NCBI GenBank assembly: GCA_002011125.2
Contig: MTMF02000009.1
Span: 1,642,989 to 1,706,988, forward strand
Source: Candidatus Hydrothermarchaeum profundi
GTDB lineage: Archaea > Hydrothermarchaeota > Hydrothermarchaeia > Hydrothermarchaeales > Hydrothermarchaeaceae
Length of the DNA: 64,000 nucleotides
Direction of reading: 5' to 3'
How positions within the stretch are numbered: the first letter of the stretch is position 1; each line of letters starts with the position of its first letter. Below are positions 27,739 through 34,063 of this stretch, piece after piece. The notes under the pieces are model-generated. The model had not been told where the DNA came from. It saw only the letters and a program-made list of their open reading frames with translations, and ran no database searches. A program made the position numbers and the translations under genes.

Positions 27739-28164
27739 ATGAAAAATTTTTTGCAAGATGAAAAAGGGCAATTAGTTGGAACTCCACTTAAACTTGTTAT
27801 ATCTGTAGTTATCGGAGTCGCAGTACTAGGCATTCTTTTACAAATGATGAATCTAGTCGGAGTAATGAATCCGCATTCATTTCTAGTAGAAGACGACTAC
27901 ATAATCGAAAACGGGATCACACCAAACACGAGAAGCATTACCTTAACAGTTAAAGATGAGAACGATGGGAGGCTTGTTAGAGGAGCAATAGTTGAGATAA
28001 AGGGCGCTGGTGCAAGTGATGCTGCAGTAACCAATAATGAGGGTAAAGCCACCTTAAAAGTCAGTTTCGACATTGCTGGAGCACCCTACGCAAAAACTAC
28101 AATAACCGTTTCAAAAGAAGGATACTCCAGGTGGACTAAAACTTACCTAGTAAAACAAAAATAA
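27739..28164 (+). CDS. Prepilin-like protein with carboxypeptidase-regulatory/Ig-like domain
   Basis: EKGQLVGTPLKLVISVVIGVAVLGILLQMM prepilin-like N-terminus; RGAIVEIKGAGASDAAVTNNEGKATLKV. Confidence 0.6.
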   Translation: MKNFLQDEKGQLVGTPLKLVISVVIGVAVLGILLQMMNLVGVMNPHSFLVEDDYIIENGITPNTRSITLTVKDENDGRLVRGAIVEIKGAGASDAAVTNNEGKATLKVSFDIAGAPYAKTTITVSKEGYSRWTKTYLVKQK

Positions 28165-28172
28165 GTGTTAAA

Positions 28173-28592
28173 ATGGAAGAAATGCCTATACAACTTCTAC
28201 TTACCGTTATTTTATTTGGATTTACATTATCTGTAGGATTTAACGCATGGGATTATGCGAGATTAAATGAAGAAAAATTAGCCTGTTATGATTCTATTAA
28301 TACCTTTTTGATAAAATCCCAACTCGTTATTTCAGAGGCGCCAATGTCGCGTGAGAAATTAGACCTAATAGTTAAAGGGAAATCTGAGTTATATTTGCTA
28401 AACGAAGAAATAAACAATAGCCAAGTAGGTTTAATTAAGGCAGAATTCGCAGACGGCTCTCACTATCTTCAGGTGCTACCAGTTCCTTTTGTCGAAGAAC
28501 GGATTTTTAAATCTGGGGAATATTCACTATCGCTAATTCATATAAAAAATTCTCACGGAGATTTCTTGGGCGTGACCATAGATGCTGGTTGA
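28173..28592 (+). CDS. Single-TM pilin-like/pseudopilin-like hypothetical protein
   Basis: IQLLLTVILFGFTLSVGFNAWDYARLNEEKLACYDSINTFL; co-directional in cluster. Confidence 0.55.
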   Translation: MEEMPIQLLLTVILFGFTLSVGFNAWDYARLNEEKLACYDSINTFLIKSQLVISEAPMSREKLDLIVKGKSELYLLNEEINNSQVGLIKAEFADGSHYLQVLPVPFVEERIFKSGEYSLSLIHIKNSHGDFLGVTIDAG

Positions 28593-29076
28593 CTGGATGA
28601 TTCAAAAGACCGGAACGGTATTAACATTTTTTATAATTTCATGGACGCTATACAAGGTATATCTAATTAATGAAGAATATAATATCAATAATGAAATTGA
28701 AGAAACCTTAGAGGATCTCACTGAACAGATTGAAGTAGTATCAAATTCTGCTAAAGAATATTCGGTGGGAAAAAGTTTTTCAAAAATAATTGAACTCCCA
28801 GAGGATATTAGCGGGTTTCCATACATAATTACTATCGATCCAAAGGGAAGCATTGAGATAAATCTACTTAACAAGGAGATATCTAAGTTCACATTACTCC
28901 CGAAATCCGCTATAATCAACGCGAAGGGAGAAACTTGTTTAATTATCTCAGGATTCAATGAAAAAGGTAAAGTCTCTGTTGGAATACCTCTAAATGGTAT
29001 GAATAGAACTAGGAGCCTCAAAGTTACAAAAGGCAAGGACACTAATGTTTGCATTGAAATTTTAGCGATGAGTTAA
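28582..29076 (+). CDS. Single-TM pilin-like hypothetical protein
   Basis: TGTVLTFFIISWTLYKVYLINEEYNI; overlaps upstream gene. Confidence 0.5.
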   Translation: MLVDWMIQKTGTVLTFFIISWTLYKVYLINEEYNINNEIEETLEDLTEQIEVVSNSAKEYSVGKSFSKIIELPEDISGFPYIITIDPKGSIEINLLNKEISKFTLLPKSAIINAKGETCLIISGFNEKGKVSVGIPLNGMNRTRSLKVTKGKDTNVCIEILAMS

Positions 29077-29532
29077 ATGGAAGAGATAAGTATCCTCACC
29101 AAAGTCTTCTTATTTCTATTATTCTGTAGCTTTATAGCATATTCTTATTATCAATTTGAAGAAAGACGCGAACCAATTAAGAGGTTCTCGGCAGCACTAG
29201 ACTTCTCAGACACTTTGAAAAATAATCTGCTCTGCGTTAGAACTAGCGGAACACCTAATCCCGGCCTGCTAGATATTGAGACTCTGCAGAAAGTAAATTA
29301 CAAAATCCTAGAAAAATTCTGGAACAAGCCTTACCAGTGGGAAGTTGTTATACGAGATTCCAATGGCGCCATTGTATATGAAGAAGGCGATCTTAAAAAA
29401 GAAGGTAAGGACCACATATATCTCGCTAACTTAGGTAAGGAGTACACTGTTGTCCAAAACATTATAGCTATTAAAAGTCTCGATAGATCCGTGCATTTTG
29501 GGAAATTAGAGGTGTGGGTATGGGATACATAA
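29077..29532 (+). CDS. Single-TM pilin-like hypothetical protein
   Basis: ILTKVFLFLLFCSFIAYSYYQFEERREPIKRFSAALDFSDTLKNNLLC; abuts upstream stop. Confidence 0.5.
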   Translation: MEEISILTKVFLFLLFCSFIAYSYYQFEERREPIKRFSAALDFSDTLKNNLLCVRTSGTPNPGLLDIETLQKVNYKILEKFWNKPYQWEVVIRDSNGAIVYEEGDLKKEGKDHIYLANLGKEYTVVQNIIAIKSLDRSVHFGKLEVWVWDT

Positions 29533-30326
29533 CCGAGAATAAGGGGCAGAGCGAAGCAGCTGATGTCATCATTTTAGCTATGCTGGTTTCTTTTTCGTTA
29601 TATCTAATATCTAACTATGGGATAGGAGCATATGAAGATGATTATTATTTAAAGAGTCTCAATTCACGATATCTCGAGGATTTGTCACAGAGTTTTGTTC
29701 TAACTGTGAGATACTTGTCAAATTGTAATGATAAGCTAACCTATACTGTAGGCATTGACTCTAAAGTCCTTGGTAACTCAGATACTCTAAGAAACATTCT
29801 AGAAGCTAATCCGCTGGAGAGGCATTTAAGAATAAATCTTGTAGACCTCATTATTGAAGACTTGTTTCTGGGACTTAAATTTCAGTATAACAATTCTAAT
29901 TTATACTCCACCGACATTTTAGCAGGTGATTTTCACCAGAGTGTAGAACGAAAGGTTTTCGAAGATATGTCCTTTGTATTGAGCAGACAATTCAACTACC
30001 GGATTGAAGGATATTATCACCCCTATAAAGGCACGCTCCTAGATAATTTTCTTTACAGTGAAGTGGTTTATACAAATGCACCATTCCCCCAAAGTAGTAG
30101 TGTATACATTGGGAAAGCATCAGTAACTGTACCCATTAATGTAAGTATCTTAGAAAATATTTTCTTATTTGAACACTCGGAAAGTAAAATGCTCTTATCA
30201 AATTTTTTTAGTCTCCAACTTAACAGCTCCGTCAATCCCACGTTTTTTGAGATGATAAGAGCTACACACCCTAAAAACAATGCGGCCGAAATAAGAATTA
30301 TGCTGTGGAACTCAGGGACGGCTTAA
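29514..30326 (+). CDS. Prepilin-like hypothetical protein
   Basis: ENKGQSEAADVIILAMLVSFSLYLISNYG resembles class III (prepilin) signal plus hydrophobic helix. Confidence 0.55.
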   Translation: MGMGYITENKGQSEAADVIILAMLVSFSLYLISNYGIGAYEDDYYLKSLNSRYLEDLSQSFVLTVRYLSNCNDKLTYTVGIDSKVLGNSDTLRNILEANPLERHLRINLVDLIIEDLFLGLKFQYNNSNLYSTDILAGDFHQSVERKVFEDMSFVLSRQFNYRIEGYYHPYKGTLLDNFLYSEVVYTNAPFPQSSSVYIGKASVTVPINVSILENIFLFEHSESKMLLSNFFSLQLNSSVNPTFFEMIRATHPKNNAAEIRIMLWNSGTA

Positions 30327-33300
30327 GAATGAGTTTTTTGAAAAAAGAGGATGGAATGATTCCATTTTCATCTCTTGGAATAATTATGCTTCTCATCACA
30401 GGTATAGCGATCTATCACTTTAGTAAGGTAGATCTTCAGCGAGCGCGCTCTATGAATAAGCATACTGCTGACATGGAAACATTTTATTTAACAACCTCAA
30501 TAAACTTAGACCTTCAGCAAATAACTCGAGGGGCTATTAAACAGGCTATTCTTAATCATTCAATTAGCACTTATGGGTCTCCTATTAATATCGATGAAGA
30601 GTGGAAAAATCGAAAGGCATACGAACAATGGCGAAAAAACTTAGAAAAAGATATCGAACAATCAATTATAGATTCTATCTACTACTCATATTACCAAGGT
30701 AATATAAGCAAGCTAAATGAAAGATATGACGATCACCTAACAAACTTCGATTTCTCTAGGTTTTTAAGCTCAAAGAAAGATCTAAAAGTTAAAATAAATC
30801 CTGATTTTTATGATAGAGATAAAAAAGTGCAACATAGCCTTGAAACCGAGGTTAACTTTTATAGAAATGGCATTATCGGTGCCCATAATAAGTATACATT
30901 TCATGAAATGTCCTTGAAGTTAGGTACTTCTGTGACATCCGGACTACGGCCTTTCACAATGGCGGATAAAGCGTATGCTTTTACAGGCATTTTTAAAAAA
31001 AGAGCACCTAACCCCTTGAATCCCCTAGAATGTATTGAACCAAAAAAGGCGGGATATAATACGGTAGACGAATTAGCATGGTACTTATGGGGCATACAGG
31101 AAGTCCTCGGTTTTTTTGAGGCTAATGTTAATCATAACATCAAATTCGCTACGGATGATAGAGCATCATATTCCCTAATTCAGTTAATTATAGCGTATAA
31201 AGAACTTGAGCAGTTTGGTACATTTGATTATATTCATGCTACTTCTGAGTTTATACGCCCATGGTTAGGAAGCGAGAATGAAGGGGAAGAGTTTGTTAGA
31301 GTTCTTGAAAAGGGATTGAACGAAAAAGTAGCTAAAGAAGCTGCAGATATGATGGAGTCTTCAACCTTTATTAAAAATCTTTTCAGCAGAATTAACGAGA
31401 TTGGAGATCTATTGATACTATCAGCATCACATTTGGATAGTGCTACCGTGAATATGGATAAAGGAGGCGGATTCCCCCCAGCCATCGCCTCTAATCTAAA
31501 TTTAGCCTCAGAAGGAGTAACCCAGCATTTAAGACAAGCCAGCGACATGTCTCGTCTAATGGAAGTCTACGATACATTATCCCTGATAAAAGAAGAAGTT
31601 GAAGAGAATAAAGAGAATGTAGAAAGTTCTGAAATAGAAAATTGGGGAGATAAAATTGAAGCTCAGATCTCAACTGTTGCACAAGAATGGAATGATGTCA
31701 AAGAAGAGTGGAAAGAAGGGAAATATGACCTCGAAACTTCTAAAAATAATCTAATATTAGCCAAAAAAGACCTTATTGGCCTCAAATTCTGGTTAGAAGA
31801 TGAAAAATGCAAAAATAATGTAGCTACTTCTTTATGGTTTGGAAATGAGAATCAAAACTATAAAGGTATGTACGAGATACTGCCCGCGAAGTTAGAAGAA
31901 ACTAATAGACTTATAGACTCGCTTAGTGACTTAGAAGGAAGATATAATGCTTTAAGATATGATGAAAACTCAGACGATTATTACATTAACTACTATTACC
32001 ACGAAACAATTAGAAATTTGAAGGAAGCGAAAAGCCTTCTTTCTCAAGCAGAATCGGCTAGGGAGACATATCTTGCTCAGAAATATAAGTATGATAACTG
32101 CAGACTCCAAATAGACTATAAAGATCCAAAAATGGGCGGTTGCTTAAGTTCTGGCTATCGATGTAGAGCATATAAATGCAGTCCCTATCCCTGTGATTGC
32201 ACAACTGAAGAAGGTGTTACAACCTGTGAGACATGCTACAGAACTTGCTACCATTCATGTTATGATTGTATATGTGATAAGGGCATCTTAGAAATTAACT
32301 TCAGAGAAGCTCAATCTAAATACGAAGAATATATGAAAAAAGCATTAAAGCCGCTCTCTCGTGCAATAGAAGATGTTCTCTTAATGAGAAACTCTGGAGA
32401 AACCTTTTACGATGAAAAAGGGGCACAGGAAATATTAGAAGAAATTGAGAAAATTCATGGAGTATATACAACTCCCACTTACCTTCCATCTCAAGAAACA
32501 TACTACTCCATAACTGATATCTATTATGCTCACTGGAACTTCTCCCATAGTAAGAATGACATTCCTCATTACATACTAGCTTTAGATATCAATACCCCAC
32601 TGACGTATAATTTAGAAAACAAAAAATTTGATGATTATGGCATCTTCCACATTCAACGAACAGTTAAAGCCATGGAAAGAGCTATCGAAGACCCTTCTCT
32701 TGATGTAGACGCCCTTCAAAGAGGAGAGCAAGCGCTTGAAAAGATGATAAACCAACGCTATTTTGAGAATCTTTCAGGGATATTAGAACTTATCGGTATA
32801 TTTATAGAATCTTCTGAGAATATGAGAACCGCTCTACTAAACATAAGAACATTAGAAACACATTTTCCTAATGCAGTAGATCACGCTTATACAACTTTCC
32901 TTCTACCCCCTATAAATTCATCGCGTTTAGGCTATCAATATCAGGGGCTATCGGTTATACATGATATTCGGCTTAGAGTAGATACACGTCCTGGTAAAAT
33001 TAAGCTCCCGATTATAGGCGAAGTAGGCTTAGGCAGAGATAACTCAGTTAATCCTTCCTTCCCGCTACCTTATACTCCTGTTAATTTTTATATATGGGGC
33101 TTTGAGATTACTCCAAGTTTTAATGAAGAAATACCAGAAATGTCGACACTCTGGCTCATTGACTCCGATACGAATGTACTTACCTCTCTACTAGAAATGA
33201 AGATTAATGATAAAACTATTCCTATCCCCTTGATTCTTCATAAGCCAATTATGTATAAATTCGAATTTACTCCTTTAGAAATTATCTCCAAAAGCATTGG

Positions 33301-34063
33301 AAAAAATTATCTACCTCCCGTAGTTGTTTTCTCTGTGGGACCTTTTACCACCAGATTTAGAGATCGCGTTGAGCCTCCGGATAAAGACATCACAGTACCA
33401 ATTCTTGTAGATTTATCTTATTCAGATAAACGTGTGTACCTGAATACTTCGAATTCCGCTGGGCGGGAAGTATATGTGTTTACTTCGGCATTCGAAAGGG
33501 TGAACAGTTTAAGTTATCCTCTAAAAACTTCTTTAGGAACTTTAAAATTAAACGGCAAAACTTTTTTCTCATCGAATTCAAAAGCCCCCAAGTGGGCACA
33601 ATTAAATGGATTAAAATTATTAGACGAATATGGATGGTCCGAAATTATCATAGACGCTTATGCTACTCATGATCCTATGAGCCCGATTTTCAGCAACAAG
33701 TCTAAACGTATTGAAAAGACTTCCCATGTAAAAGGAAGCGATCATATTCGGATTCTATTACAAGAAGATATCGGAAAAATAAGTATCTCCGGGTCTAAAT
33801 ACGGAGATCATTTGCGAGTAAGTAATAAGGGAAATAAGAGAGTTGATATCTCGATAAGTGGGGAAACATGCACATTTTTTAAGCCTATGACCCCTAGGTC
33901 TACTATTACTAAAGAAATGTGGTTTGGTACGATAGATCCTAAGAGAAGTATAGAATTAATTGTCTTTTACAAAGAAAAAACCAATGTTTCTGTTGAAATA
34001 GAAATGCCGAGGGTATTAAAGGAAGATCTAGATATTCCAAGTATCAAGATAGAGTATCCATAA
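30305..34063 (+). CDS. Giant single-TM extracytoplasmic protein (1252 aa; coiled-coil, Cys-rich knot, beta-rich C-terminus)
   Basis: FLKKEDGMIPFSSLGIIMLLITGIAIYHFSKVDLQRARSM N-terminus; CxxxC-rich insert CLSSGYRCRAYKCSPYPCDCTTEEGVTTCETCYRTCYHSCYDCIC. Confidence 0.7.
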   Translation: MELRDGLRMSFLKKEDGMIPFSSLGIIMLLITGIAIYHFSKVDLQRARSMNKHTADMETFYLTTSINLDLQQITRGAIKQAILNHSISTYGSPINIDEEWKNRKAYEQWRKNLEKDIEQSIIDSIYYSYYQGNISKLNERYDDHLTNFDFSRFLSSKKDLKVKINPDFYDRDKKVQHSLETEVNFYRNGIIGAHNKYTFHEMSLKLGTSVTSGLRPFTMADKAYAFTGIFKKRAPNPLNPLECIEPKKAGYNTVDELAWYLWGIQEVLGFFEANVNHNIKFATDDRASYSLIQLIIAYKELEQFGTFDYIHATSEFIRPWLGSENEGEEFVRVLEKGLNEKVAKEAADMMESSTFIKNLFSRINEIGDLLILSASHLDSATVNMDKGGGFPPAIASNLNLASEGVTQHLRQASDMSRLMEVYDTLSLIKEEVEENKENVESSEIENWGDKIEAQISTVAQEWNDVKEEWKEGKYDLETSKNNLILAKKDLIGLKFWLEDEKCKNNVATSLWFGNENQNYKGMYEILPAKLEETNRLIDSLSDLEGRYNALRYDENSDDYYINYYYHETIRNLKEAKSLLSQAESARETYLAQKYKYDNCRLQIDYKDPKMGGCLSSGYRCRAYKCSPYPCDCTTEEGVTTCETCYRTCYHSCYDCICDKGILEINFREAQSKYEEYMKKALKPLSRAIEDVLLMRNSGETFYDEKGAQEILEEIEKIHGVYTTPTYLPSQETYYSITDIYYAHWNFSHSKNDIPHYILALDINTPLTYNLENKKFDDYGIFHIQRTVKAMERAIEDPSLDVDALQRGEQALEKMINQRYFENLSGILELIGIFIESSENMRTALLNIRTLETHFPNAVDHAYTTFLLPPINSSRLGYQYQGLSVIHDIRLRVDTRPGKIKLPIIGEVGLGRDNSVNPSFPLPYTPVNFYIWGFEITPSFNEEIPEMSTLWLIDSDTNVLTSLLEMKINDKTIPIPLILHKPIMYKFEFTPLEIISKSIGKNYLPPVVVFSVGPFTTRFRDRVEPPDKDITVPILVDLSYSDKRVYLNTSNSAGREVYVFTSAFERVNSLSYPLKTSLGTLKLNGKTFFSSNSKAPKWAQLNGLKLLDEYGWSEIIIDAYATHDPMSPIFSNKSKRIEKTSHVKGSDHIRILLQEDIGKISISGSKYGDHLRVSNKGNKRVDISISGETCTFFKPMTPRSTITKEMWFGTIDPKRSIELIVFYKEKTNVSVEIEMPRVLKEDLDIPSIKIEYP

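Follow-up and report, generated by a model that had tools for sequence, protein, structure and literature searches.

Which machine is built by six tandem pilin-like genes that have no assembly ATPase beside them? The question is raised by positions 27739 to 34063 of a 64,000-nucleotide stretch of the Candidatus Hydrothermarchaeum profundi genome (contig MTMF02000009.1, positions 1,642,989 to 1,706,988; hereafter the window), where six open reading frames (ORFs), g1 to g6, follow one another on the plus strand. We conclude that the six genes probably form one operon for the subunits of an archaeal machine that resembles a type IV pilus, belongs to the DUF7284/7285/7286 kind, and is driven by a motor acting in trans. 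The evidence comprises a conserved gene order, profile homologies to pilin series of other archaea, leader sites in three of the proteins, the long N-terminal helix predicted for g4, and the association of homologous series with TadA/TadC genes. Outside the window, only targeted stretches of this genome (G000) were read.

Organization of the locus

All six predicted ORFs are present and lie almost end to end, with intergenic spacings from g1 to g6 of +8, -11, 0, -13, and +2 bp, and each product has a single hydrophobic helix at its N terminus. An earlier note on this DNA had described this layout, which stands apart from two lengths: the likely starts of g5 and g6 are the ATG codons at 29520 and 30329, slightly inside the earlier GTG starts, giving 268 and 1244 amino acids (aa) rather than 270 and 1252. 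The same note had pointed to prepilin-like junctions in several of the proteins, and a FlaFind-like scan places class III junctions in g1 (KG↓QLVG), g5 (KG↓QSEA), and g6 (DG↓MIPF), three of the six class III matches among the 69 window ORFs.

Recognizable domains are few. The Ig/carboxypeptidase-regulatory-like domain that had been assigned to g1 alone is found there as a match to Pfam CarboxypepD_reg (E = 5.7e-6), which lies under the Pfam cut-off, and g3 gives in addition a weak match to DUF7266 (E = 0.025); a Pfam scan of the g2, g4, g5, and g6 sequences returned zero family matches. Of the six proteins, only g4 was modeled reliably by AlphaFold (predicted local distance difference test [pLDDT] of 91), with a predicted N-terminal helix over residues 2 to 51 followed by a 4-stranded sheet in a pilin-like layout, whereas the g6 model (pLDDT 37) is unusable and was set aside. 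The middle of g6 contains a Cys-rich insert (residues ~591 to 649, window 32099 to 32275) with 13 cysteines. As the earlier note had reported for ATPase and TadC, no T2SSE ATPase, T2SSF/TadC, or A24 peptidase gene is found within the window; the genome copies are all elsewhere, and two candidate motor loci are included in Table 1.

Table 1. Genes of the pilin-like cluster (window coordinates) and candidate motor loci of the same genome (C9 coordinates)
Feature	Coordinates	Strand	Description
g1	27739..28164	+	Small class III pilin, 141 aa; N-terminal helix and Ig/CarboxypepD_reg-like domain
g2	28173..28592	+	Minor-pilin-like, 139 aa; leaderless, starts MEEMPIQLLL
g3	28582..29076	+	Minor-pilin-like, 164 aa; leaderless
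g4	29077..29532	+	Minor-pilin-like, 151 aa; leaderless; DUF7285-like
g5	29520..30326	+	Class III minor pilin, 268 aa; KG↓QSEA junction; DUF7284-like
g6	30329..34063	+	Giant pilin-like, 1244 aa; DG↓MIPFSSLG junction, helix-rich middle; DUF7286-like
TadA747 and dual TadC620	C9:1275-1280 kb		TadA of 747 aa, Cys motifs at the N terminus; TadC of 620 aa; MinD nearby; ~0.39 Mb from the cluster
PilB3-like fused ATPase and two TadC-type genes	C9:829-834 kb		No pilins adjoining

Conservation in near relatives and Hadarchaeota

The nearest counterpart is found in G001, a same-family genome that is 62% complete, in which g2 to g5 and the start of g6 lie on one contig in the window order and the remainder of g6 lies on another. 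Identities to the window are 51% (g2), 40% (g3), 47% (g4), 34% (g5), and, over ~1170 aa, 38% (g6), and the position of the Cys-rich insert is kept. G000 and G001 are the only carriers of the module among the genomes of the class (2 of 23). Sequence and two-row profile searches for g6 relatives likewise returned G001 only, and none was found in viral contigs.

Beyond the class, the cluster is carried by seven Hadarchaeota genomes of one family, with up to six genes including a giant of 422 to 717 aa, and a search of named genomes showed them to be Hadesarchaea/Hadarchaeum metagenome-assembled genomes (12 loci, the ordered set being present at most of them). The g1 to g6 order is kept at loci L148 to L154 and L168 to L179. 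In hhalign comparisons with Hadarchaeota the window profiles score 97.8% for g1 (~30% identity), 96.5% for g2, 97.7% for g4, and 95.4% for g5, with off-diagonal values of 1.3 or less; against the Hadarchaeota giants of 637 to 704 aa, g6 scores 86.2% at the N terminus and 95.8% over the body. Giant length varies by lineage (422 to 1352 aa), and the Hadarchaeota giants, unlike that of the window, have no visible Cys-rich insert. The cluster and TadA/TadC of Hadarchaeota stand on separate contigs. The six ORFs are not chance reading frames, because the g2 to g6 orthologues have the same order in G001 and the set recurs in Hadarchaeota. Gene order in relatives, which the earlier note had proposed as a check, is thus kept in full in Hadarchaeota, for g2 to g6 in G001, and for g2 to g5 in Methanosarcinaceae (see below).

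Where the Hadarchaeota sequence extends beyond the giant, the next gene is small and convergent ('VAASDVIRSMMR.GF..DEIYDVL'), for instance at L168:5992-6477, and a weak relative occurs near TadA in L123 (E = 3e-4).

A homologous series beside TadA and TadC in small genomes

Loci of small genomes (0.5 to 1.3 Mb, here labeled DPANN-like) were selected by similarity to the 747-aa TadA of Table 1 and independently of pilin content. Many of them contain a TadA/TadC pair bearing an N-terminal Cys-rich domain and six pilin-like genes in the order PA-PB-P2-P3-P4-P5, P4 being present at 16 such loci. When window/G001 pairs were compared with this series as profiles, g1 matched PB (94%), g2 matched P2 (95%), g3 matched P3 (89%), g4 matched P4 (87%), and g5 matched P5 (67%, rising to 94% with enriched profiles). 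Off-diagonal scores were low except for g1 with PA (86) and with P2 (32); PA and PB are related pilins, and g1 and PB resemble ordinary KGQ pilins.

The g4/P4 profile has matches in 51 of 394 archaeal genomes, and a TadA747-type gene is present in 46 of these 51, compared with 124 of the 343 others (Fisher 1e-13, relatedness ignored), and in 27 of 30 families.

Several DPANN-like loci (L096 to L125) also encode, beside TadA, a small multi-pass membrane protein which on visual inspection resembles an archaeosortase. The same TadA neighborhoods (e.g., L109:11381-12978 and L125:11603-12945) contain a divergent 'GFSLFTPLVG' protein of 257 to 697 aa; these large 'SLFTPLVG' proteins were considered as g6 counterparts and rejected (hhalign, 7% or less).

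Relation to the DUF728x families

DUF7283 to DUF7286 (PF23954 to PF23957) are uncharacterized Pfam families of Halobacteria and Methanosarcinales, and our literature search for DUF7284, DUF7285, and DUF7286 found no paper. The window proteins fall below detection when compared directly with the DUF7284, DUF7285, and DUF7286 models, so that the link runs through profile-profile steps. Searches with DUF7284 and DUF7286 lead to loci of Methanosarcinaceae (family f36, a name given here on the basis of its genes; Methanosarcina acetivorans, the named control, matches too) with g2 to g5 equivalents in order; the best equivalent of each gives hmmsearch E values of 9.5e-5 to 4.8e-23. One Methanosarcinaceae genome has, beside these, a divergent giant of 1352 aa that matches DUF7286 (E = 7e-40). 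Profile comparison of the window with Methanosarcinaceae gives 96.7% for g5-S5, 95.5% for the enriched g4 profile with S4, and 73% for enriched g3-S3, and the g6 N terminus scores 28.9% against the DUF7286 giant, the best value in its row.

The Pfam models themselves meet these counterparts to different degrees. DUF7284 matches the g5 equivalents in 10 of 13 Hadarchaeota A10 rows (best E = 1.6e-7) and in Methanosarcinaceae (2.1e-13, over the cut-off), and g5 is accordingly assigned, through its relatives, to the DUF7284 position. DUF7285 is weak against the g4 equivalents (best E = 0.0014 in Hadarchaeota A11; 1.3e-4 in Methanosarcinaceae, under the cut-off), DUF7286 gives 0.58 and 0.003 with Hadarchaeota giants, and DUF7283 has a single match, to one Hadarchaeota g3 equivalent (E = 0.12). 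In Haloferax volcanii and M. acetivorans, DUF7284 and DUF7286 both exceed the cut-off. The matches of the Hadarchaeota and Methanosarcinaceae counterparts agree with the earlier comparison of the cluster to DUF728x-type pilin clusters with a giant, 'PFALVGVLLL'-like member, which that note places next to TadA/TadC-like genes in haloarchaea, and they speak against the suggestion, made in the same note, of an undescribed variant.

A similar layout is found in clusters with DUF7266 from Methanosarcinaceae-like genomes (L038, L039, and L044), which like the window contain six codirectional prepilin-like genes with no adjoining ATPase; they differ in having no giant, and apart from g3-M4 (54%) their genes score 35% or less against those of the window. 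Two such clusters stand in tandem in L038 and L039.

Are the six proteins pilins?

Several observations weigh against our reading. The FlaFind-like scan finds no class III prepilin site in g2, g3, or g4. A fold search with the g4 model retrieved no PDB match at E ≤ 1e-3 and no solved pilin fold; from the structural check proposed in the earlier note there remains the helix-plus-sheet layout, which is pilin-like. The g1 position in G001 is occupied by a different pilin-like ORF that runs off the contig, so that g1 is not kept there, and no g1 counterpart was found in the Methanosarcinaceae loci read. With 1.9% against Hadarchaeota f3, the best value in its row, g3 is placed by position only. 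No relation is detectable between g6 and the large pilin-like proteins that adjoin TadA in DPANN-like genomes. As for the motor, no TadA747-class gene was detected in G001, where incompleteness of the genome may be the explanation, and four further genomes have P4 with the TadA747-type gene absent.

The absence of leaders in g2 to g4 and of a PDB pilin match for g4 would suit a set of unrelated single-pass membrane proteins that resemble pilins at the N terminus only. This explanation is very improbable and mostly excluded, since the junctions persist elsewhere: KG/RG sites are kept in the g2 and g3 counterparts of DPANN-like and many Hadarchaeota genomes, in g4 of DPANN-like genomes, and in g4 of G001, which unlike the window protein carries a DERG↓QIED leader; moreover, the series adjoins TadA/TadC in many archaeal families. 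The window genes g2 to g4 (28173 to 29532) begin at about the mature pilin N terminus, and the pattern suggests that the prepilin leader was lost from them in a lineage-specific manner, possibly repeatedly.

Candidate motors

TadA747 orthologues occur in 170 of 394 archaeal genomes and in 0 of 22 other class genomes. In a phylogenetic tree, TadA747 groups with TadA of Methanosarcinaceae and of Haloterrigena plasmids (96/95; the Haloterrigena rows are short), next to Hadarchaeota (95/88) and apart from the DPANN-like group. The Haloterrigena plasmid loci contain TadA/TadC and no pilins. A long distance also separates the TadA orthologue from the pilin cluster in G251 and G050; motor and pilins are therefore encoded apart in three lineages, Hadarchaeota and Methanosarcinaceae among them.

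The second candidate is the PilB3-like ATPase, encoded by a 1052-aa ORF (L014:8948-12106, corresponding to G000 C9:828947-832102) with two complete T2SSE domains and a PilB3_C match. G001 and the majority of genomes in the order have a two-domain match in a single frame of ~1000 to 1190 aa, and in G021 two half matches share one frame; the ORF is a conserved fused double secretion ATPase. Its locus, too, has no neighboring pilins; in Haloferax, PilB3-C3 can work with pilins encoded at the PilB1 locus (PMC6491452); and G001 combines the module and a PilB3-like ATPase with no detected TadA747. The same pilin module might on these grounds be driven by the PilB3-like ATPase or by an orphan ATPase, or be shared among motors, instead of being driven by TadA747/TadC620, which we regard as unlikely: the PilB3-like ATPase is present in 22 of 23 class genomes and the module in two, and it is TadA747-type genes that the homologous series adjoins across archaea. 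We set the PilB3-like ATPase aside as a dedicated motor, nearly all relatives having it without the module. The pairing of the cluster with TadA747/TadC620 in this cell would follow from adjacency and co-occurrence in other archaea. The earlier proposal of a machine powered in trans is in line with these results, as a matching TadA/TadC pair is encoded elsewhere in the genome and its relatives adjoin homologous series in DPANN-like genomes.

Two A24 prepilin peptidase genes are present in the genome. One A24 peptidase gene is followed by three class III pilin-like genes (KGQMTMEG, KAEVTIEA, and RGQISLEA; L025:4478-7236, corresponding to G000 C9 ~707 to 710 kb), which are a separate pilus or archaellin-like set.

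A possible mechanism

On the type IV pilus-like reading, the g1 to g6 subunits would insert into the membrane, where a prepilin peptidase would trim g1, g5, and g6, while g2 to g4 would already start near the mature end. TadA747 and the dual TadC620 would then extrude the pilin bundle. The best candidate for the filament subunit is g1, a small pilin whose head is Ig-like; g2 to g5 would be minor pilins and g6 a giant minor pilin, possibly a tip protein or adhesin, with g2 to g6 forming the initiating complex. The N-terminal helix of g6 would be anchored in the bundle, with its helical, Cys-rich, and beta-rich body directed outward.

Minor pilins of the bacterial type II secretion system (T2SS) and type IV pilus (GspH-I-J-K; PilVWX and PilY1) form sets in which several distinct small proteins are joined, in a conserved gene order, by a single large one. 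The likeness to the window is an analogy of layout, as no sequence or fold homology was found. A position of g6 at the tip may be proposed from these bacterial complexes, and the same analogy, with the leaderless g2 to g4, the absence of an abundant small pilin array in the window, and the lineage-variable length of g6, could point instead to a pseudopilus or envelope-spanning secretion or attachment device, in which a short g1-to-g5 bundle positions or pushes g6 as the surface worker. We consider this alternative doubtful, as g1 and PB resemble ordinary pilins, of which DPANN-like loci have two, the genes for the major pilins of archaea often lie at other loci (PMC4858521), and no secreted substrate was identified. 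The formation of a filament is a supposition of the pilus-like reading. A bolder and still less probable idea is that of a widespread archaeal device for cell-cell attachment or secretion, derived from type IV pili but not an ordinary adhesion pilus, whose minor pilins repeatedly lost their leaders and whose main working part is the pilin-anchored giant; if true, the same machine in DPANN-like symbionts would be a host-contact apparatus.

Known systems and significance

TadA747 fits the description of ATPase subclade 4F, which has an N-terminal Cys-rich domain and occurs in methanomicrobia, Halobacteria, and small-genome archaea (PMC4858521); the assignment was made by description and not by placement in the published tree. 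For what looks like this ATPase class, the 2016 census of Makarova and colleagues could identify no cognate pilins in nanoarchaea (PMC4858521), and the PA-to-P5 genes that adjoin the ATPase are a candidate for the missing pilin set. The window cluster itself belongs to a known but uncharacterized kind; the proposed ordered pilin set for the small-genome ATPase class would be the new part.

Pilins served by a motor in trans have a precedent in Haloferax (PMC4858521, PMC6491452), where, as here, the H. volcanii PilB3-C3 motor and PilA pilins are encoded at separate loci; however, Haloferax PilA pilins are stand-alone genes rather than an ordered operon with a giant, and the PilB3 ATPase is of another clade. 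An ordered pilin series common to small-genome archaea, Hadarchaeota, Methanosarcinaceae, and the window lineage is linked to three uncharacterized Pfam families and provides a defined, testable parts list for a surface machine about which little is known. Its function is testable by gene deletion, because DUF7284 and DUF7286 match in the tractable H. volcanii and M. acetivorans.

A further ORF of note, at L013:6523-9252, encodes a 909-aa protein in which a zinc ribbon is combined with TPR and KaiC-like ATPase domains; the gene of an orphan PilB-like ATPase lies two genes away.

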